Made by a program: the position numbers and the translations under genes. Shown here in pieces: positions 761-17,454 of a stretch of 20,612 bases of DNA (position 1 is its first letter; each line of letters opens with the position of its first letter). Origin of the DNA: a virus. The notes under the pieces were generated by a model. The model was given only the letters and a program-made list of their open reading frames with translations, did not search any database and was not told where the DNA came from. The stretch covers positions 1 to 20,612 of IMG/VR virus record IMGVR_UViG_3300045994_000118; one strand, given 5' to 3'.

Positions 761-1078
761 ATGGCTAAGCAAAAAGTAGAACTACACTTCTTGTATCGGA
801 AGTACAGCTGGGAAAAAGAAGGTAAGTTGTTTGTTACTAACTTGGAACCGGAAACATTTGTATCACCAGACTGCATGCTGGTAACTTCAAGAACTGCAAT
901 GCTTGATATGCCGGAAATTCCAAGCGAAACTGCCAGCACAATGCATCGAATCCAGCAGATGGAAGCGCAGTTGAAAAAGATGAGAGCAGCTCACTACAGG
1001 GAAGATCAAGAACTCACAGCGCAGATTCAAGAACTTCGCTGCCTTTCTTTCCACGCAACTACAGAGGAAACAGAATGA
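761..1078 (+). CDS. Unknown phage protein with C-terminal coiled coil
   Basis: This encodes 105 residues from the ATG at 761. The first ~55 residues look like a small beta-rich domain. Residues about 65-95 are a charged, heptad-like helix (M/I/L spaced through Q, K and E) that probably forms a coiled coil. There is no signal peptide or membrane segment. It begins one base after the zinc-protein stop and its TGA overlaps the next ATG (ATGA at 1075-1078), so translation of the ATPase downstream is probably coupled. I do not recognise a family. A role alongside the recombination genes is suggested only by position. Confidence 0.7.
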   Translation: MAKQKVELHFLYRKYSWEKEGKLFVTNLEPETFVSPDCMLVTSRTAMLDMPEIPSETASTMHRIQQMEAQLKKMRAAHYREDQELTAQIQELRCLSFHATTEETE

Positions 1079-1842
1079 AACTCAATGATTACATTCCAGC
1101 AAGCACACGACGTATCTTAGTCTACGGTGCACCAAAAACAGGTAAGACAGTTCTTGTCGGAGGCTTAGCAACAAAGTACGAACTTACTTGGTTCGACTTA
1201 GAGAACGGAGCCAATTCATTAGTCTCCAATATTCCTAAGGAATTTCACAAGAACATCGAACTGATTCAGATTCCAGACACTAAGGAATTTCCAATCGCTG
1301 TAGAAACCATGCTCAAAGTATTCAATGGTAGCAAGGTAACTATCTGTGAAGCTCATGGCAAAGTATCCTGTGCCTTGTGTAAGATGACCGGCACTGTAGT
1401 GGAACTTAACACGATGACTCAGAATCAAATCGTCGTCATTGATTCCGCCACACAGCTTACAACTTCTGTCATGAACTACATCGGTAAAGGTAAGACGGAT
1501 GACTGGAAGCCGGACTGGGAAGATTGGCGTAAGCAGGGAAGTATCCTCGATCGCATCTTTACACAGATACAACAAGCCGGTTATAATGTTGTCGTTATTT
1601 CCCACGAGACAATGGCTGAAATGCAAGATGGTAAACAGAAGATCGTTCCAGTTGCAGGCAGTTCCAACTTCAGTAAGACATTCGCCAAGTACTTTGACGA
1701 TGTTATCTACTGTGAAATGGTGAACAAGAAACATAAGTTCGCCTCAGGTACAGACTACGGCATGAACATTCTTTCAGGTTCAAGAAGTAACTTGAAGATT
1801 GAAAAGGATGCAACTCCAAGTCTGCTTTCATTGTTTGAATAA
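1075..1842 (+). CDS. Sak4-like RecA-fold ATPase (probable ssDNA annealing/recombination protein)
   Basis: The 255-residue protein has Walker A GAPKTGKT at residues 18-25, Walker B IVVID at 119-123 and a sensor-like ISHE at 175-178. This layout matches phage P-loop proteins of the AAA_24/Sak4 group, which are short relatives of the RecA/Rad51 core. Sak4 proteins promote single-strand annealing and work with a phage SSB, and a probable SSB gene lies at 3231. Residues 91-102 form C-x2-H-x4-C-x2-C, a likely zinc knuckle inserted between the Walker motifs. The start overlaps the previous stop (ATGA), indicating translational coupling. The ATPase assignment is firm; the annealase role is inferred from family and neighbours. 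A DnaB-like helicase is less likely because the protein is short and lacks the usual later motifs. Confidence 0.75.
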   Translation: MKLNDYIPASTRRILVYGAPKTGKTVLVGGLATKYELTWFDLENGANSLVSNIPKEFHKNIELIQIPDTKEFPIAVETMLKVFNGSKVTICEAHGKVSCALCKMTGTVVELNTMTQNQIVVIDSATQLTTSVMNYIGKGKTDDWKPDWEDWRKQGSILDRIFTQIQQAGYNVVVISHETMAEMQDGKQKIVPVAGSSNFSKTFAKYFDDVIYCEMVNKKHKFASGTDYGMNILSGSRSNLKIEKDATPSLLSLFE

Positions 1843-3664: not shown

Positions 3665-4027
3665 ATGAGCGCGCAGATTCTGTACCCTGAGTTTGTGCAC
3701 AAGTTAGTGAAGCCAGGAGATTCAATTCTGGCTTCCCTTTCTGGTGAAGATTGCAACCTGATTCACATGGCACTTGGTGTATGCGGTGAAGCTGGCGAAC
3801 TTGCTGATGCTATCAAGAAAGCTACTATCTACCGCAAACCTGTGGACATTAAGAATGTCTTGGAAGAACTGGGCGATCTCAAATTCTTCATGACTGAAAT
3901 CATGAATCACTTCAACTTCACTGAAGCGGATGTTGAAGCTGCTAACATGGCTAAGTTGATGAAGCGTTACGAAAGTCTGACGTACTCGGACAAGGAAGCA
4001 CAAGAAAGAAAAGACAAAGTAGAATAG
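3665..4027 (+). CDS. MazG-like nucleotide pyrophosphohydrolase
   Basis: The 120-residue protein carries the all-alpha NTP pyrophosphohydrolase metal-binding pairs: E42-A-G-E45 (in GEAGELADAIKK) and E68-L-G-D71 (in LEELGDLKF). These coordinate the magnesium ions that drive hydrolysis of NTP to NMP and pyrophosphate. The length fits single-domain phage MazG-like enzymes, which sanitise or adjust nucleotide pools or lower (p)ppGpp; the substrate cannot be read from the sequence. The start lies two bases after the SSB stop, so the two are co-transcribed. It is followed by a hairpin before the polymerase gene. Confidence 0.85.
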   Translation: MSAQILYPEFVHKLVKPGDSILASLSGEDCNLIHMALGVCGEAGELADAIKKATIYRKPVDIKNVLEELGDLKFFMTEIMNHFNFTEADVEAANMAKLMKRYESLTYSDKEAQERKDKVE

Positions 4028-4116: not shown

Positions 4117-6282
4117 ATGAATATCCTTCACTTAGGGACTCCATTAGATAATCACTACATCTCCGAACTTAAGAAACTACTACCTTCCGGCGTTGTCTTA
4201 AAGACTACTCACGCCACACCTTCCATGAGAAGTGAACTCCTTATCCAACTCGATCGCTTGAACTCCGGCCCGAATAAGATTGATGCAATCATCACCACGA
4301 ATTACTTAGTTGCTGGTCTGTTCTCAGGAAACTCCAAAGCTACTTTAGATAAGTACGCTGGTAGTATCTTCAGACTCGGCAAAAACAATGTGCCGCTTCT
4401 AGTCTTAAACAACTTAGAACACCTGTTCACCATTCCTCATGGCAAACACTTAGCTAAAAGATATTTAAGTAAGATCATCAATCCAGAATCATTCTTCAGT
4501 CAGTCTGAATTCCGTTGGGAAATCCCCGAACCGCAAGACTTCCCAAGACTCCTGAAGCTTTTCTCAACCTCAATAGCTATAGCAGTAGATATAGAAACAG
4601 TCAGAAACAATCTGGCTATTTCCTGTTCTGGTTACTGTGCTATCTTCCCTGATGGGACTACACACTCAATAGTTATTCCATGCTCGGATGACTTCAACTT
4701 AGAGTGGATAAGGAAGTTCAACGACCTTCCCAATCCTAAGATCATGCAGAACGGAAGCTACGACTGTTCCTACTTCCTGCGCTACGGCATTCCTCCACTG
4801 AACTACAAGTTCGACACCTTACACTTGTTCCATTCATGGTACACAGAAATGCCAAAGGCTTTGGACTTCTTAGTAAGTTACTTGTTACCTGATTTTATCT
4901 ATTGGAAGGATGAAGCGGAAGATGCAAAGTCCTTACATGATTACTACCGATACAATGCCAAAGATACTTGGGCTACAGCTAACTGCTTCATGGCTCTGAT
5001 GAAAGAAATGCCAGACTGGGCGATTCAAAACTATCTGATTGAATTCCCGATGGTATTCCCAACTCTACACATGAGCATGGAAGGTATGGCCATTGATACA
5101 AAGGAACGAGACCGAATCAGCATCATCGAAGAAAAGAAGTTGGATGAGTCCTTGGGTGATATAAGACAAAGCTTGAACCTTCCAATGTTTAATCCTGGAA
5201 GTCCTAAGCAGGTCAAGGAACTTTTTGCTGTACTTGGTTCTGGAGACATACAAAGTTCTGATGTTAAATCTATGGACAAAGTTAGTTCTCGTCACCCACT
5301 CAATGCTTGGTTCGTTTCAAGAATCGTTGGCTACCGTAAGGCAAAGAAACTGCTTTCAACCTATATGAATGCGGAGTTATTAAATGGAAGATTCATGTAT
5401 AGTTTTGCTGTTGCTGGAACAGATACAGGTAGACTTGCTTCCAGAGAATCCGCGTTTTGGTGTGGTGGCAATATGCAGAACATACCAGAAGGGATCAAAT
5501 CTATGTTCGTACCGGATGAAGGATGGCTACTGTCAGAAATAGACTACGCACAATCCGAAGCTCGGTGTGTTGCATACCTGTCCGGAGATACAAAACTTAT
5601 CGAAGTGGTGGAATCCGATAAAGATTACCACAAGCTTAACGCTGCTATGTTCTTCGGTGTCCCCTATGAAGAAGTTACGAAGGCTCTACGAAATCTGGCG
5701 AAGAGAACTAACCATGGCGCTAATTACAACATGGGTTCTGGTGTCATGCTGGAAACTATGGGGATTGATAATGTAATCCAAGCCAAGCTGCTGTTGAATC
5801 TTCCAAGTTATTTAAGTCTGAGGGAGGTTTGTCAACACCTTCTCGATGTTTACTCCAATACTTATCCGGTGGTAAAAGGAAAATGGTACAACTTAATCAA
5901 ATACTCAATTGCTGTAACCTCCAAACTGACAAGTCAACTTGGTTGGACAAGGTTCTGTTTTGGCGACCCGTCAAAAAACAAGCAGGCTTTAAATGCGTAT
6001 GTAGCTCATGTACCGCAAAACTTGTCTGTATCTATCATCAATCAAGCTCTCCTTACTATATGGAAAGAGCTAGCCCTAACTGGGCGTATAAGATTGAAGG
6101 CACAAATACACGACTCAATCCTCTTCCAGTACAGACCAAATGATTCTGAAGTAGTTGGAATTGTAAGCAGGCTCATGGAAGTTCCTGTGCAAATAACTGG
6201 CTCTGATAACAAAGTTAGAACAATGCTTATACCTAACGATGTGGATTCAGACTTAGAACGATGGAAGGTTCCCATGAAATGA
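4117..6282 (+). CDS. Family A DNA polymerase with 3'-5' proofreading domain
   Basis: The 721-residue replicative polymerase has an intact exonuclease domain: Exo I D158-I-E160, Exo II N212-G-S-Y-D216 and Exo III Y279-N-A-K-D283. The polymerase motifs are also complete: motif A D476-Y-A-Q-S-E-A-R, motif B R525-N-L-A-K529-R-T-N-H533-G-A-N-Y537, and motif C Q-I-H665-D666-S. Both catalytic aspartates are therefore present. In the O-helix, His533 sits where E. coli Pol I has Phe762 and T7 polymerase has Tyr526, and Asn538 replaces the usual Gly after Tyr. The first ~140 residues precede the exonuclease and I do not recognise them; there is no 5'-nuclease domain. AGGAG lies about 8-9 nt before the ATG. 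The stop overlaps the next start (ATGA). Confidence 0.97.
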   Translation: MNILHLGTPLDNHYISELKKLLPSGVVLKTTHATPSMRSELLIQLDRLNSGPNKIDAIITTNYLVAGLFSGNSKATLDKYAGSIFRLGKNNVPLLVLNNLEHLFTIPHGKHLAKRYLSKIINPESFFSQSEFRWEIPEPQDFPRLLKLFSTSIAIAVDIETVRNNLAISCSGYCAIFPDGTTHSIVIPCSDDFNLEWIRKFNDLPNPKIMQNGSYDCSYFLRYGIPPLNYKFDTLHLFHSWYTEMPKALDFLVSYLLPDFIYWKDEAEDAKSLHDYYRYNAKDTWATANCFMALMKEMPDWAIQNYLIEFPMVFPTLHMSMEGMAIDTKERDRISIIEEKKLDESLGDIRQSLNLPMFNPGSPKQVKELFAVLGSGDIQSSDVKSMDKVSSRHPLNAWFVSRIVGYRKAKKLLSTYMNAELLNGRFMYSFAVAGTDTGRLASRESAFWCGGNMQNIPEGIKSMFVPDEGWLLSEIDYAQSEARCVAYLSGDTKLIEVVESDKDYHKLNAAMFFGVPYEEVTKALRNLAKRTNHGANYNMGSGVMLETMGIDNVIQAKLLLNLPSYLSLREVCQHLLDVYSNTYPVVKGKWYNLIKYSIAVTSKLTSQLGWTRFCFGDPSKNKQALNAYVAHVPQNLSVSIINQALLTIWKELALTGRIRLKAQIHDSILFQYRPNDSEVVGIVSRLMEVPVQITGSDNKVRTMLIPNDVDSDLERWKVPMK
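6263..6268 (+). promoter_or_regulatory. Ribosome binding site GGAAGG that fixes the start at 6279
   Basis: GGAAGG lies 10 nt upstream of the ATG at 6279, inside the end of the polymerase gene. The alternative in-frame ATG at 6261 has no such site upstream. The 6279 start also gives the ATGA stop/start overlap seen at other junctions here. Confidence 0.6.
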
Positions 6283-7529
6283 CACGAATAATAGATACAT
6301 ACTTGAAAGAGTTCGTACATGAAACAGAATCTACAACCATCCACCATCGCTGGTGCTTCCTCAGTATCGCTGCCGGACTCCTTGGAAGAAAGATTAAGCT
6401 ACCTTTCGGACACTGGGAAATCTATCCTAATATGTACACCATGCTTATGGGAGAGCCTGCCACCAGAAAGAGTTCTGCGATATCAATTGCTGAAGGAGTC
6501 CTTAGAAAGGTTGGATACGATTCTATTGCTAAGGGAAAGACTAGCCACGAAAAGTTCCTAATGGACTTAGGGCGTCATGAAATGGAAGGGAAGAAAGAGA
6601 ATGGAAAAGCAGAAGATTTCAACGTTGACTTGTGGGCAGAAGAATCAGGAAGTTCCGAAGCGCATGAGTTGTTTGTTGCAGCGGATGAATTCAATAACTT
6701 TATCGGACTTGGAAACTATGGTTTCATTTCTACGCTCGGTGAACTGTGGGATTGTAAGCCAGACCATCCCGTCAGATTTAAGAATTCGACAAGCTTTACT
6801 ATCCATGAACCAGTTGTTAACATACTTGGAGGGAATACCCAAACGGGATTCTGTCTCGCCTTCCCACCGGAAATCATTGGTCAGGGGTTTTTCAGCAGAT
6901 TGCTTCTTATACATGCAGACCCTTCTGGAAGACGAATTACTTTCCCGAAAGACCCAAACAGGGATGTAGAAGCAGTAATAGTTCACAGGTTGCAGCAGAT
7001 GGCAAACCTTGTATCCGGAGATTCCACACTAACTCCTGAGGCTGAAGTTGCTGTGGATTGGATTTACCAAAACCAGAAAGGAATAGAAGATGCACGCTTC
7101 CAGAACTATGCAGGTCGGAGATTAACTCACATGCTAAAACTATGTATGATCTATGCAGCTTTGGAACTGAGGAGTGAGATTCAGGAATCAGATGTAGTCT
7201 TAGCCAATTCCACTTTGTGCTTTGCAGAACAAAGAATGCCAATAGCTCTAGGTGAATACGGGAAAGGAAAGAACGCAGATGTTGCAAGTAAGATTCTGCT
7301 CATGCTGGACCAAGCACACAAGCCACTAACCTGCAAAGATATTTGGTCGATGGGGGGTATCAGTTCAGACTTAAATAAGATTCAGGAACTGGCTGAACTT
7401 ATGATGAATCTAAAGATGGCTGACAAAGTTGTAGAACATGGAGGTGGATTCTTGATTAAGAAGAAGCCTGTAGAAGTTGCCGGTAAGTACTGTGACTTCG
7501 AATTATTAATTGAAAACGATAGGAGATAA
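6279..7529 (+). CDS. DUF3987-type P-loop ATPase (helicase-like replication protein)
   Basis: This encodes 416 residues from the ATG at 6279. Walker A is GEPATRKS at residues 58-65, a form typical of DUF3987 proteins. A Walker B-like VAADEFNNF follows near residue 140, a sensor-like NILGGNTQ near 195, and a GFFSRLLLIHADP segment near 220 whose Arg could act as arginine finger. The C-terminal ~100 residues look like a winged-helix domain. DUF3987 proteins are often the helicase half of primase-helicases and lie beside phage polymerases, as here. No TOPRIM or AEP primase motifs are present, so priming must come from another gene. Start overlap with polA suggests the two proteins are made together. 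Confidence 0.75.
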   Translation: MTRIIDTYLKEFVHETESTTIHHRWCFLSIAAGLLGRKIKLPFGHWEIYPNMYTMLMGEPATRKSSAISIAEGVLRKVGYDSIAKGKTSHEKFLMDLGRHEMEGKKENGKAEDFNVDLWAEESGSSEAHELFVAADEFNNFIGLGNYGFISTLGELWDCKPDHPVRFKNSTSFTIHEPVVNILGGNTQTGFCLAFPPEIIGQGFFSRLLLIHADPSGRRITFPKDPNRDVEAVIVHRLQQMANLVSGDSTLTPEAEVAVDWIYQNQKGIEDARFQNYAGRRLTHMLKLCMIYAALELRSEIQESDVVLANSTLCFAEQRMPIALGEYGKGKNADVASKILLMLDQAHKPLTCKDIWSMGGISSDLNKIQELAELMMNLKMADKVVEHGGGFLIKKKPVEVAGKYCDFELLIENDRR

Positions 7530-7531
7530 TT

Positions 7532-8014
7532 ATGGCAAGAATTAAAATGAAACGCAAGGCACGGGATGCTGAGGGTATTCAATACACCGGAGTTCATGAT
7601 CCAGAATTGGATGCAATGCTTACAAGTGTTGGGTACACCAACATCAACATCCTATCTGGCTGCCTTATGGCAAGAGGTGGAAGTAATAACAAGGAACTCT
7701 TGTGTCTTTACATTGGTGACTGGATGATCCAAGGACAGAACGGAACTATCTGGAGAGAAACTAAAAAGGCTATTGACTCCAAGTATGATATTACTGAAGA
7801 CGAGGAAGAGGTAGTTAATACAACTTTCGATGGAGTTCTTAATTCTGATTGGAGCGAACATCTTCTGAAGGTTGAACGAGGCTTGGCTAATGTGAAGTGG
7901 GAGTTGGCAGAAAGAAAGTTCAAACAGGCATTGTACATTCTATCCAGAACCAGTGCAGAACTCAAGAGAATGCGCAGTGCTATCATCCGATTAGGAAACG
8001 AGGAAAACAAATGA
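7532..8014 (+). CDS. Small two-part phage protein of unknown function
   Basis: This encodes 160 residues, with AGGAGA about 6-7 nt before the ATG and a gap of two bases from the ATPase gene. Residues about 1-85 begin with a basic MARIKMKRKAR and contain G-D-W-M-I-Q-G-Q-N-G followed by a K-x-A-I-D-S-K-Y helix. This resembles a widespread uncharacterised phage domain with a GDWI...G...F...Y pattern. Residues about 86-112 are acidic. Residues about 113-155 form a charged helix, possibly a coiled coil. No enzymatic motif is visible. Its stop overlaps the thyX start (ATGA at 8011-8014). Function is unknown. Confidence 0.65.
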   Translation: MARIKMKRKARDAEGIQYTGVHDPELDAMLTSVGYTNINILSGCLMARGGSNNKELLCLYIGDWMIQGQNGTIWRETKKAIDSKYDITEDEEEVVNTTFDGVLNSDWSEHLLKVERGLANVKWELAERKFKQALYILSRTSAELKRMRSAIIRLGNEENK

Positions 8015-8661
8015 AAATCATTAGAGCAGGATATAAGATTCTAAACTTCACACCAAACTTGGAACAGACAATCGAACAAGCTATCCGCTTCTGCTATAAA
8101 TCGGAGGATCGAATCTGCGAAGGAAGTGCAGAAAAGATAATCAAACAGATGTTGGTATCTCACCATGAATCAACCTTAGAACATGGGTTGATTTCAGTTC
8201 ATATTATCTGTGACCGAGGAATCAGCCATGAGATAGTGCGGCATCGGATAGCCAGCTATTCCCAGGAAAGCACACGATACTGTAACTACTCCAAAGATAA
8301 GTTCGGGAATGAAATCACAGTCGTCAATCCTGAATGGGCATTTCCAGATATGGAACTTGACCAGTTCACCTATTGGAGAAAGGGATGTGAAGAAGCTGAG
8401 AAAGCGTACTTCGATATGTTAGAAGCTGGTGCTCCAGCACAACTAGCCAGAAGTGTGCTTCCAGGCAGTCTTAAGACAGAACTTGCCTGGTCAGCCAATC
8501 CAAGAGAATGGCGAAGTGTATTCAAGCTGAGAACCAGTAATGCAGCGCATCCTCAGATCGTTGAGATTATGAAGCCAATGTTGAAAGAGTTTCAGACTCG
8601 CTGGCCAAGTCTTTTCAGTGATATAACTGCTGGGGAGAAGTGGGAAGGAATGTTCGAATAA
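8011..8661 (+). CDS. thyX: Flavin-dependent thymidylate synthase ThyX
   Basis: The 216-residue protein makes dTMP from dUMP using FAD, NADPH and methylenetetrahydrofolate. The diagnostic ThyX motif RHR-x7-S is intact: R77-H78-R79 and S87, followed by R89-Y90. The N-terminal H51-H52-E-S-T-L-E-H58 helix and the C-terminal N163-P-R-E-W-R ... L-R174 block also match the family. Length is typical. The start at 8011 is chosen over an upstream in-frame ATG at 7897 because it has GAGGA 6 nt upstream, begins at the family's usual N-terminus and forms ATGA with the previous stop. It supplies thymidylate for phage DNA synthesis and ends the plus-strand operon just before the terminator. Confidence 0.96.
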   Translation: MKIIRAGYKILNFTPNLEQTIEQAIRFCYKSEDRICEGSAEKIIKQMLVSHHESTLEHGLISVHIICDRGISHEIVRHRIASYSQESTRYCNYSKDKFGNEITVVNPEWAFPDMELDQFTYWRKGCEEAEKAYFDMLEAGAPAQLARSVLPGSLKTELAWSANPREWRSVFKLRTSNAAHPQIVEIMKPMLKEFQTRWPSLFSDITAGEKWEGMFE

Positions 8662-14274: not shown

Positions 14275-15915
14275 CTATAAACCCATGTTAGAAACAGCAG
14301 CTGCAGTAGTATTCGCAGCTTGTTGGCTTCTTTTTACCTGAAGAACTGCAAGCTTAATGGAATCGAGGTTACCCATATCCACAAGCAAGTCAGAATTACC
14401 TGCAACCCCGCCAAACCATTTACCTGGTACTTTCAAAGTAATAGGCATAGAACTGACAGGTTTTAATCCCATCGAATCTCGATTGGAATTTGCATTCTCC
14501 ACCTTCATACCTTGCTGAATCATACCCTGCAATTGCTGAGGTGTTGCATGTCCAGCTACAACAAGATTGAAAGCAGTCTGCCAATCCAGAGCACCAGATA
14601 ACGCAACAGGTACGTGAGGAGCTAACTGAGGATTTGTGTACATAGCGGCAGGACTGATACCACTAAGCCACTTAGCATCTGTGGAAGTGAGTGTGTTCTG
14701 GATTACAGAAGTGGTAGCAAACTCTTCCCGCAATGCAGCCTTCTTAGCTTCTGGCATCTTCAGGTAATCAGCGAACTTAATACCATACTTACTGAGACCT
14801 GACTGCAACAACTGACTCTTCTCATTGGGTGAACCATCAGCATTAAGCATGTCACTATTAAACTTAGCTCCAGCATCGTGTACATTTCTGGCTATTGCAG
14901 CGTTCACTGGATTGACCAATGTTGGATTAGCCGTTGCACTGGCCGGCACACCGGAATTCATGATACCGTAGATTGGCACCATAACCTCAGGAGTTCTAAC
15001 ACCTGCATGATACAACTGCAAAGCCCGCTTCTGTGCATCACTCAGAGATTGTACTTCTGCATAAGCGTTGGCATCAGTAATTCCTTTAGCATCCTTAACT
15101 GTATCAACCAGCGATTTCCGGTAATTGGAATCATTCAGCACATCAGTCAGCTGAACATCCAACAACTGACCTTGTTTAGTTTTCAATCCAATATCCACTA
15201 CATGACCTTCATGCGCATCCTGCCCTGCACGAACTGCCATGTAAGTACTTAGAATCTGACTCTTAACTTCCAAAGACTTCTGACCGGCAGCGGCAACACT
15301 GGCATCCATCTTATTGGACTGTTCCAGATTCGTCATTGCAACGCTATCTGTCTGTGCCTTCAATGCTGCCTGCGTTACAAGTTTAGCGTCATTAACATAC
15401 TGTGGATCTAGCATGACCTTAGCCTGCTCAGTCTTTATAGCATTGTCCCTTGCAGCAGTCTTAGTCAGTTCACTCTGCGTGATTCGCGCAGCGCTTTGCT
15501 GCAACAAGTTAGACTTCCGCAACAAGTCATCCTCAGTAGTGTTGTTGAACCAGCGGCCAAGCTGATTTGGGATATTAGCTATACCAGTCTCGTCATGTGC
15601 CTTAGCTGCATCCATCAAAGTATTCCGTAGGATTTCATTCATCTGCCCTACAGCTGCATAAGACTTAGTTGCAGAATCCGGAGCTACATCCTGAGACTGC
15701 ACACTTCTGGCAGATTCCACAAGCCTGTCAGTATTACGCTGGTTAGCTTCCCCACCGATGCCCATCTGCACAATCTGATCAGCAGCTAACTTAGCCTGCT
15801 GTTGTGCATTGGCTGTAGCGTTAGTGGCATAAGTACTGGCAGCTAGTTCTGCAGCACTCCCAGCTGATTGAATCCCAGGAAGCTGGGCACTAATAGTACT
15901 TGAATAATCAGCCAT
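14275..15915 (-). CDS. Cysteine-free internal virion/ejection protein candidate
   Basis: This encodes 546 residues, with GGAAGGA about 6 nt before the ATG. The N-terminal ~240 residues are Ala/Gln/Ser-rich and almost entirely helical, suggesting a long coiled-coil or bundle. The middle (about 250-420) is mixed. The end (about 480-546) contains a short beta-rich part followed by an Ala/Thr tail. No cysteine is present and no enzymatic motif is visible. Its start overlaps the upstream CFI-box gene by 8 bases and it is followed 11 bases later by the 1590-residue gene, so all are one transcript. Size and place match the middle member of a T7/P22-type ejection set (compare T7 gp15). The assignment is by analogy. 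Confidence 0.65.
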   Translation of the reverse strand: MADYSSTISAQLPGIQSAGSAAELAASTYATNATANAQQQAKLAADQIVQMGIGGEANQRNTDRLVESARSVQSQDVAPDSATKSYAAVGQMNEILRNTLMDAAKAHDETGIANIPNQLGRWFNNTTEDDLLRKSNLLQQSAARITQSELTKTAARDNAIKTEQAKVMLDPQYVNDAKLVTQAALKAQTDSVAMTNLEQSNKMDASVAAAGQKSLEVKSQILSTYMAVRAGQDAHEGHVVDIGLKTKQGQLLDVQLTDVLNDSNYRKSLVDTVKDAKGITDANAYAEVQSLSDAQKRALQLYHAGVRTPEVMVPIYGIMNSGVPASATANPTLVNPVNAAIARNVHDAGAKFNSDMLNADGSPNEKSQLLQSGLSKYGIKFADYLKMPEAKKAALREEFATTSVIQNTLTSTDAKWLSGISPAAMYTNPQLAPHVPVALSGALDWQTAFNLVVAGHATPQQLQGMIQQGMKVENANSNRDSMGLKPVSSMPITLKVPGKWFGGVAGNSDLLVDMGNLDSIKLAVLQVKRSQQAANTTAAAVSNMGL

Positions 15916-16717
15916 TATCTTTTCCTTCCTCTATCGCCAGAACTTGGATTACAGTTTCCAGCAGTTGAATATAAAGTTTAAACGCAAGTTCATCATCCTT
16001 AGCTTTAATCGCTTGTATTGCCGGCAGAATGAACAGTGTGAATAACTGCTTAGAAATAACCTGACCTCGCTTACAATCACGAAGTCTCTGAGCCAACATA
16101 GGACTAAGCGTATAATATACCTGAACCAGCTTTTCACCACTTGTGGTACTCTTCAGGAAAGAGTCTCTCCAAGTTCTAAGTACCTGCAATTCTTCACAGT
16201 CATCATCCAGTCCTACATTCTCACAGATCGCGGTGGTGATGAAACAGCCACCAGTACTCTGCTGCACTGTTTGAGTCTTAGTATCATTAGCCAGATTAGC
16301 TCCACCATTAGCTGTGGTACTGAGGAGATTCAGCAGTGCTGGCATGACATTATTTGAGATCTTTCCAGTAAGATCGGAACTAAGCAGTGCATCCAGATTG
16401 GCGTTACCCGAACCCCCTGCTCCTATGATAGAACTAAGGTGCTGCTGGAGTCCAGAAGTGAGTACGTTAGTAAGCACGGTCTCCATTGTTGGAGCTGTAC
16501 CATCTGCGTTCATCTGACCCAGAATGGCCAGTAACGCGGAAGAATCCCCTGGCTTGCTTATAAGATTGTTGCCAGGTTGGGTCATGCTATTGGCGATGAT
16601 CTGACCAATACCAGTTCCCACAGCACCGCCGTAACTAGGAGTTCCAGCTATCCCAGCAGTATCAGCGGTTGCAGCAGTTGCCGGAGTTCCATTCATAAAT
16701 GAGTTAATACCGCCCAT
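15908..16717 (-). CDS. CFI-box domain protein, paralogue 1
   Basis: The 269-residue protein starts with a Gly/Ala/Thr-rich region, includes a PGDSSALLAILGQMN segment (residues about 56-70) and a probably disordered linker ending TQTVQQSTGG. It then has the CFI-box: C158-F-I-T-T-A-I-C165 ... C174-E-E-L, L-R-T-W-R-D-S-F-L and V-Y-Y-T-L-S-P, followed by helices to the end. The CFI-box is a widespread C-terminal domain of unknown biochemistry. The protein aligns along most of its length with the next upstream gene, so the two arose by gene duplication. The gap between them is 2 bases. A virion or ejection-associated role is inferred from position between the endolysin and the candidate ejection proteins. 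Confidence 0.75.
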   Translation of the reverse strand: MGGINSFMNGTPATAATADTAGIAGTPSYGGAVGTGIGQIIANSMTQPGNNLISKPGDSSALLAILGQMNADGTAPTMETVLTNVLTSGLQQHLSSIIGAGGSGNANLDALLSSDLTGKISNNVMPALLNLLSTTANGGANLANDTKTQTVQQSTGGCFITTAICENVGLDDDCEELQVLRTWRDSFLKSTTSGEKLVQVYYTLSPMLAQRLRDCKRGQVISKQLFTLFILPAIQAIKAKDDELAFKLYIQLLETVIQVLAIEEGKDNG

Positions 16718-16719
16718 AG

Positions 16720-17454
16720 TTATTCCCCTTTCCAGTCTTGTAATACTTTAACCATCAAATGATACAACAGTAACGCTTCTTCGTCATCACCAGCTTCAAT
16801 AGCTTCAATTGCCGGATTGATGAAAGTATCCAGTAACTGTTCGCAAGTTTGCTTAGCTTCCTTGCTGCCGCGAATCTTGTCCGCAAGTCTTGGGGCAATC
16901 AGGTAGTAAAGTTCTACAAGCTTCCTGCCACCACCGGAACCCAGCATGTACGAATCACGCCAGTTCCTGAGCACTGTAAGTTCATCACAATCATCTGGTT
17001 TGCCAAGAAATTCACAGATCACAGTGGTTATAAAACAGCCCCCACCTCCAGCACTCTGCTGCACCGTCTGAGTCTGAGTAGCTTTAGAATAGTTATCCGC
17101 AGCTGTAGCTAGATTCCCTTGACTCTGAGTCACGGCTGCCTGTGCGTTAGCAGTAAGCTGGCTAAGCAAGTCATTCTGTTGCAGTCCTGCACTTGAGCTT
17201 GAGTTTACTTTCATACCAGCCTTACCGGCATTACTTGTTATAGTACCTTCATTCTGATTCAGCCCTGTACTGAATATACCCTGAATCAGTTTGTTAATTG
17301 CTTCAGGTGTATTAGCTGACTGTAAGTTCTGCAAGGTTGTAGCTAAAGCACTGGTATCACCTGGGTTAGTAATAACAGTATTGCCACCCTTAGTTCCCAT
17401 CGAACCCATTATAATCTGGGTGGCTGCCATTGCTGCTGCTTGATATCCTGGCAT
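16720..17454 (-). CDS. CFI-box domain protein, paralogue 2
   Basis: This encodes 244 residues. After a short Ala-rich start come a PGDTSALATTLQNL segment (about 31-44), an Asn/Gln/Ser-rich region, and the linker TQTQTVQQSAGG. The CFI-box follows: C140-F-I-T-T-V-I-C147 ... C156-D-E-L, L-R-N-W-R-D-S-Y-M and L-Y-Y-L-I-A-P, then helices. Cysteine spacing (C-x6-C-x8-C) is identical in the two paralogues. The start lies 2 bases after the M15 peptidase stop, and AAGGAG in the 3' end of that gene serves as ribosome binding site. The two copies have diverged clearly in their N-terminal halves, so the duplication is not recent. Function is unknown; see paralogue 1. Confidence 0.75.
   Translation of the reverse strand: MPGYQAAAMAATQIIMGSMGTKGGNTVITNPGDTSALATTLQNLQSANTPEAINKLIQGIFSTGLNQNEGTITSNAGKAGMKVNSSSSAGLQQNDLLSQLTANAQAAVTQSQGNLATAADNYSKATQTQTVQQSAGGGGCFITTVICEFLGKPDDCDELTVLRNWRDSYMLGSGGGRKLVELYYLIAPRLADKIRGSKEAKQTCEQLLDTFINPAIEAIEAGDDEEALLLYHLMVKVLQDWKGE

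Follow-up and report, generated by a model that had tools for sequence, protein, structure and literature searches.

Histidine at the O-helix 762 position of family A DNA polymerase: an apparently undescribed fourth residue state in a large phage lineage with DUF3987 partners

The family A DNA polymerase encoded by a 20.6 kb virus fragment (IMG/VR record IMGVR_UViG_3300045994_000118, positions 1 to 20,612; the whole of this 20,612-nucleotide stretch is referred to as the window) carries a histidine at the O-helix position occupied by Phe762 in E. coli Pol I and Tyr526 in T7 polymerase. The original prediction described the active site as unusual; we find that the residue is no oddity of one enzyme but is fixed across a broad lineage, cultured phages among them, and is apparently an undescribed fourth residue state. 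By fold and catalysis the polymerase is an ordinary member of family A, while its active-site state and its partner protein are clade-wide and apparently undescribed. The features discussed below are located in Table 1.

Table 1 Features of the window and the basis of their assignment.
Feature	Position	Strand	Basis
Sak4-like / AAA_24 RecA-fold protein; in 17/17 relatives	1075..1842	+	profile matches
MazG-like nucleotide pyrophosphohydrolase, upstream of polA	3665..4027	+	profile matches
Family A DNA polymerase with 3'-5' exonuclease domain, His762 type, 721 aa	4117..6282	+	PF00476, PF01612, phrog_17
3'-5' exonuclease domain, D158/E160/D216/Y279/D283 intact	4564..5010	+	PF01612, alignment
Motif A D476-Y-A-Q-S-E481; equivalents of catalytic D705 and steric gate E710	5542..5559	+	alignment
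Motif B / O helix R525..K529..H533-G-A-N536-Y537-N538	5689..5730	+	alignments; AF2 helix 522-536
Codon CAT, His533, E. coli 762 / T7 526 position	5713..5715	+	alignments
Codon AAT, Asn536 (E. coli I765), second signature residue	5722..5724	+	alignment
Ala630 (E. coli N845), third signature residue	6004..6006	+	alignment, profile comparison
Motif C H665-D666-S667 (E. coli H881-D882-E883); Ser in 94% of His clade	6109..6117	+	alignment
Stand-alone DUF3987 protein, 422 aa, predicted MCM-fold AAA+ ATPase; overlaps polA stop	6261..7529	+	PF13148
Walker A GEPATRKS of DUF3987	6450..6473	+	conserved block
S212-R213 of DUF3987, candidate MCM-type arginine finger (GFFSRLLLI)	6894..6899	+	conservation; finger role inferred
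ORF with flavin-dependent thymidylate synthase ThyX, downstream of polA	7897..8661	+	PF02511 1.3e-47

Profile searches with the polymerase ORF returned PF00476 (E 1.8e-39, 136 bits against a gathering score of 34), which places the protein in family A, together with the exonuclease domain PF01612 (E 3.7e-6) and the DNA polymerase group phrog_17 (E 1.5e-75). The AF2 model had a mean pLDDT of 93.2, and its best PDB match in Foldseek was the Klenow fragment (E 7e-27, TM 0.74-0.77 by target). Catalytic D476 and D666 (E. coli D705 and D882) are intact, as are D158, E160, D216, Y279 and D283, the counterparts of E. coli exonuclease residues D355, E357, D424, Y497 and D501; both catalytic aspartates and all five exonuclease residues were invariant in an alignment of 51 relatives. 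R525, K529 and Y537 (E. coli R754, K758 and Y766) are also kept. The earlier statement that the catalytic and exonuclease residues are all present therefore holds, while the accompanying claim of a working enzyme is retained as a presumption: judged by these residues, the polymerase is intact and presumably functions.

The stretch at 5689-5730 reads CGAAATCTGGCGAAGAGAACTAACCATGGCGCTAATTACAAC, that is R525-N-L-A-K529-R-T-N-H533-G-A-N536-Y537-N538, in exact agreement with the coordinates and residue numbering originally given. His533 fell on E. coli F762 and T7 Y526 without gaps in an L-INS-i alignment with E. coli Pol I and T7 gp5, took the same position, again gap-free, against Taq (phmmer), and lay on the 762 position without a gap when a 51-member clade profile was aligned with an 11-member classical profile (hhalign, E 4e-55). 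Pairwise, multiple and profile-profile alignments thus concur with the proposed equivalence, and one continuous helix of the AF2 model, residues 522-536, bears R525, K529 and H533. His533 occupies the O-helix 762 position, and the enzyme belongs to none of the Phe, Tyr and Leu types. The asparagine reported in place of the glycine after the tyrosine (Asn538) was also seen in the window, and in the His clade G767 is relaxed to Asn, Met, Asp or Leu. By homology, His533 would contact the incoming dNTP.

A first viral scan retrieved 80 relatives, and 80/80 had His, including all relatives at 40-57% identity; one of the search peptides, NHGANYNM, held the motif itself, so this count proves nothing alone. 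Two motif-blind samples were also drawn. The first was anchored on the neighbouring DUF3987 gene and comprised the 80 loci ranking closest to the DUF3987 of the window, with identities as low as about 25%; 77 were readable at 762, with 75 His and 2 Tyr. The second, anchored on the exonuclease half of the polymerase of Microcystis phage Mel-JY34, a distant relative, yielded His in 24/24. Control sequences, classical phage Pol I enzymes anchored on motif A, had Phe in 80/80 cases and DUF3987 within the fetched flanks in 0/80. No matches were returned by an unbiased scan using the window polymerase's own N-terminal half, or by a scan using the DUF3987 of ctLwi270. Sequencing error or chance as the source of the histidine is excluded by its fixation in the relatives and the motif-blind samples.

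DUF3987 was present in 72 of the 80 His loci of the first scan; of the eight loci lacking it, seven are on contigs that stop less than 400 bases from polA. Named phages with the polA-DUF3987 pair are Aeromonas P5, EBPR podovirus 3, Polaromonas Tiera, Pseudomonas 119X, PaP2-like phages, Mel-JY34, a Desulfofustis phage, Caulobacter Kuura and Vibrio VS-ABTNL-3. His762 itself occurs in the cultured phages Pseudomonas 119X/PaP2, Tiera, P5, Mel-JY34, Kuura and VS-ABTNL-3. A scan of genome contigs revealed nine His762 polA loci in MAG contigs; these are probably phage contigs, and for this reason no host was assigned from them. PBMU01000004.1 (L411, L412, L414) and NZUJ01000115.1 (L409, L410) hold two to three His762 polA copies tens of kb apart, a pattern suggestive of assembled phage concatemers that were placed in bacterial bins.

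A tree of 101 polymerase domains was built with the motif B columns removed (a quick search with SH-aLRT support only and some long branches). The 82 His rows and two Tyr rows formed one clade (SH-aLRT 95.5) whose members nearly always have DUF3987 beside polA, the grouping that the original prediction had proposed looking for. Strict monophyly of the His rows without the two Tyr rows was rejected by the AU test (p 2.6e-8); the Tyr pair is thus nested in the His clade. Inside the clade there was one later switch from His to Tyr (L292 and L298, codon TAC), and neither Phe nor Leu. Just outside it, with support of 92, lie ctLwi270 (Tyr) and vir526 (Phe, from a virus assigned to Methanomicrobiales), both DUF3987-paired. 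The tree requires one change for DUF3987 pairing and one origin of His, inside the paired part, and the pairing seems to be older than the histidine. A link between partner and residue, as had been suggested, is therefore seen as a near-perfect association, but one of shared descent and not of strict dependence, since it extends to non-His lineages with Phe (vir526) and Tyr (ctLwi270, L292 and L298). As a single evolutionary event, the association is not in itself evidence of a functional link. The history was likely one of Phe to Tyr to His within an already DUF3987-paired lineage, a route favoured because Phe and His codons are two base changes apart, and Tyr and His one.

In a virus assigned to Methanomicrobiales (L237, accession BK063670, and L322-L325) the polA-DUF3987 pair occurs together with Phe762 and an extra Gly in the motif (KIFFFGGISYG). 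Separately, in several His-clade or sister phages polA is split into two genes, one for the exonuclease half and one for the palm/fingers half, which a small ORF separates in some cases (L222; L220; L232; L234 in Vibrio VS-ABTNL-3; L235 in Kuura; and L236 in ctLwi270); these are either natural split family A polymerases or remnants of an intron or insertion.

Comparison of 107 His-clade with 96 control sequences revealed a wider active-site signature. At the I/L765 position, 94% of the His clade has Asn, against Leu, Val or Ile in the controls; at N845 the clade has Ala (88%) or Ser (10%) and the controls Asn (96%); and Ser replaces E883 in 94% of the clade. R668, D705, K758, Q849, H881 and D882 are kept throughout. 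Both Tyr rows retain Asn765, which thus does not strictly require His. Asn536 and Ala630, neither of which featured in the original prediction, are as diagnostic as His533. In Klenow, a role in sensing terminal-pair shape has been proposed for N845, and the N845A substitution lowers selectivity (PMC3347538), whereas Ala at 845 is a natural state of the His-clade polymerase. Naturally lacking N845 and combining His762 with Asn765, the pocket seems to have been rebuilt as a whole. Asp replaces the steric gate E710 in 20% of the clade (the Mel-JY34-like and some other subgroups); in the Mel-JY34-like subgroup (L208-L233, L197, L198; DLSSADLR) this unusual Asp may affect rNTP exclusion.

The partner protein matched PF13148 with E 5.5e-11 and 42.7 bits (gathering score 27); 34/34 relatives also matched the model. 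DUF3987 is the only domain in its 422 residues, a primase catalytic domain of the AEP or Toprim type being absent. Its AF2 model had a pLDDT of 88.5, and the 50 best PDB fold matches listed were all MCM subunits (best E 2e-9), with a TM by query of only 0.41-0.49. The Pfam MCM model PF00493 gave no match in the window protein and matched one of 34 relatives, at E 0.0096. On the evidence of its modelled fold, the protein would work like an MCM without being a member of the MCM family. Its conserved blocks, GxPGxRKST (Walker A), ADEF (Walker B), GFxSRLxLV and RRFTHLLKL (lid), read like an AAA+ MCM core. The arginine finger of MCM is SRFD, and R213 of the candidate finger is invariant in 34 relatives. 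The label 'DNA primase' in PHROGs and GenBank stems from phrog_14296, an annotation and not a domain, and looks wrong. DUF3987 domains fused to primases were predicted to be helicases by Kazlauskas 2018 (PMC5862659), and the helicase prediction is common to both cases; the DUF3987/DUF927 domains of that study are AEP primase fusions, whereas DUF3987 here stands alone beside a family A polymerase with no primase domain. DUF927 is cited there as a demonstrated helicase, and the cited paper terms it MCM-like.

All 17 relatives of 42-49 kb encode DUF3987, an AAA_30 (Dda/RecD-like) helicase and the Sak4-like protein; DnaB_C, SF2 Helicase_C, integrase and ribonucleotide reductase were detected in none of them. 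A T7-type replisome, with a gp4/DnaB-type ring helicase alongside polA, was accordingly not seen (DnaB_C in 0/17 relatives, the window being a fragment). The ThyX domain begins near residue 48 of its ORF and its true start is probably internal. A match to RVT_2 in the ORF at 7532-8014 fell below the gathering score and was taken as chance. Adjacent paralogues at 15908-16717 (-) and 16720-17454 (-) both carry a CFI-box-CTERM domain (NF041770).

With moderate confidence, we favour a replicative polymerase of the His762 lineage in which His533 acts in a Tyr-like manner at the dNTP, unwinding is provided by DUF3987 and/or a Dda-like helicase, and the residue passed from Phe through Tyr to His. The enzyme would be the replicative polymerase of a lytic-type tailed phage. 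The flat imidazole of His533 would pack on the incoming dNTP, against its sugar and base, as the fingers close, replacing Phe762/Tyr526, and its ring N-H may give the beta-phosphate oxygen the polar contact made by Tyr526-OH in T7. There, Tyr526-OH and the dNTP 3'-OH each lie within hydrogen-bonding distance of that oxygen, and Phe versus Tyr at 762/526 alone sets ddNTP discrimination (PMC3997047). We would predict Tyr-like and not Phe-like behaviour, with weak ddNTP discrimination, because His keeps a flat ring and a ring N-H and because Tyr, one base away (CAY/TAY), is its only replacement in the clade, which itself fits a polar, Tyr-like role. This behaviour is possibly pH-sensitive. Nucleotide selection would be shared with the Asn765 and missing-Asn845 remodelling, with the intact exonuclease clearing errors; the Dda/RecD-like helicase, the MCM-like DUF3987 protein or both would unwind the duplex. 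More tentatively, His762 with Asn765 and the loss of Asn845 might constitute a distinct fourth selection pocket in family A, evolved within an unrecognised replisome of polymerase, minimal stand-alone MCM-like DUF3987 protein and Dda/RecD-like helicase.

We regard it as unlikely that His762 is instead near-neutral and Phe762-like, having become fixed by drift in the lineage's ancestor, with the DUF3987 association a matter of shared descent only. One origin of His and one change in pairing lend that association no statistical weight beyond one event, and Phe or Tyr accompanies DUF3987 in vir526, ctLwi270, L292 and L298. However, His has stayed fixed across very deep divergence, whereas positions 759-761, 764 and 767 vary freely, Tyr is its only replacement, and it comes with Asn765 and the loss of Asn845. 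Considerably less probable is a His/Asn/Ala pocket tuned to a phage-made modified nucleotide, as in DpoZ phages. MazG-like, ThyX and other nucleotide genes do lie near polA, MazG/phosphohydrolase genes also follow polA in 119X and Tiera, and DpoZ phages demonstrate that motif B of family A can change with base chemistry (PMC8599892). Yet ThyX and MazG are common phage genes, and the set of nucleotide genes varies, with a deoxycytidine deaminase gene in EBPR podovirus 3. The window polymerase resembles DpoZ of vibriophage phiVC8 in its natural departures from the motif B consensus, but the changes of the latter at L455 and F459, its helix-O insertion and its PurZ genes have no counterpart here (PMC8599892). 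A 2-aminoadenine genome, or DpoZ membership, was rejected: the NCBIfam DpoZ models, with cut-offs of 500 and 350, gave 59 and 25 bits respectively, and no PurZ homologue was found among eight relatives, seven of them 43-48 kb. Finally, a shifted alignment with an aromatic from elsewhere filling the dNTP-facing position, the outcome named in advance as fatal to the assignment, is already largely refuted and highly improbable, for although an extra residue between R754 and K758 in the 119X subgroup (R-N-K-V-L-K-K-I-V-H) indicates that helix register can change, every alignment reproduces the R-x3-K-x3-H-G-x2-Y spacing of the window exactly and without gaps, the AF2 model has an unbroken O helix and the sole nearby aromatic is Y537, the equivalent of Y766.

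The Phe762, Tyr762 and Leu762 classes of phage PolA were reportedly set out by Schmidt in 2014. The His lineage is like them in family, in position, in a residue that marks large clades and in helicase neighbours that differ by residue; it differs in its partners (DUF3987 and a Dda/RecD-like helicase, against gp4, DnaB, SNF2, UvrD or RecB) and in the extra signature of Asn765 and loss of Asn845. With Klenow and T7 gp5, the window polymerase shares the fold, the catalytic aspartates, R754, K758, Y766 and the proofreading residues, and differs from them in its His762, Asn765, Ala845, Asn767 and Ser883. Fredfastierviridae (Pseudomonas 119X and PaP2) and Polaromonas Tiera have the same gene order, a His762 polA followed by DUF3987 (as 'primase') and MazG/phosphohydrolase; their polA is 32-35% identical to that of the window, with motif B KKIVHGTNYMMG and one extra residue before K758. 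The O helix of the 119X/Tiera/EBPR3 subgroup (L082-L084 and relatives) is one residue longer between R754 and K758 (RNKVLKKIVH).

Only Phe, Tyr and Leu are described at 762 in Nasko 2018 (PMC6302109), Keown 2022 (PMC9069017) and a 2026 study of T7 mutants (PMC13228545). Since Nasko 2018 assigned 2,045 of 2,095 assembled sequences to three types (PMC6302109), a few His sequences could have gone unreported there. Searches of the non-subscription literature returned nothing relevant on natural or engineered His762, F667H or Y526H, and no biochemistry of any His762 enzyme.

The 762/526 position is among the best-studied residues of DNA polymerases: it underlies the enzymes used in sequencing, and phage life style is inferred from it in metagenomes. 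Viral PolA is divided in published surveys among Phe, Tyr and Leu only, yet a fourth state exists in cultured phages. The His lineage is a source of natural enzymes without Asn845, and its DUF3987 partner is pointed to as a putative MCM-like motor instead of a primase.
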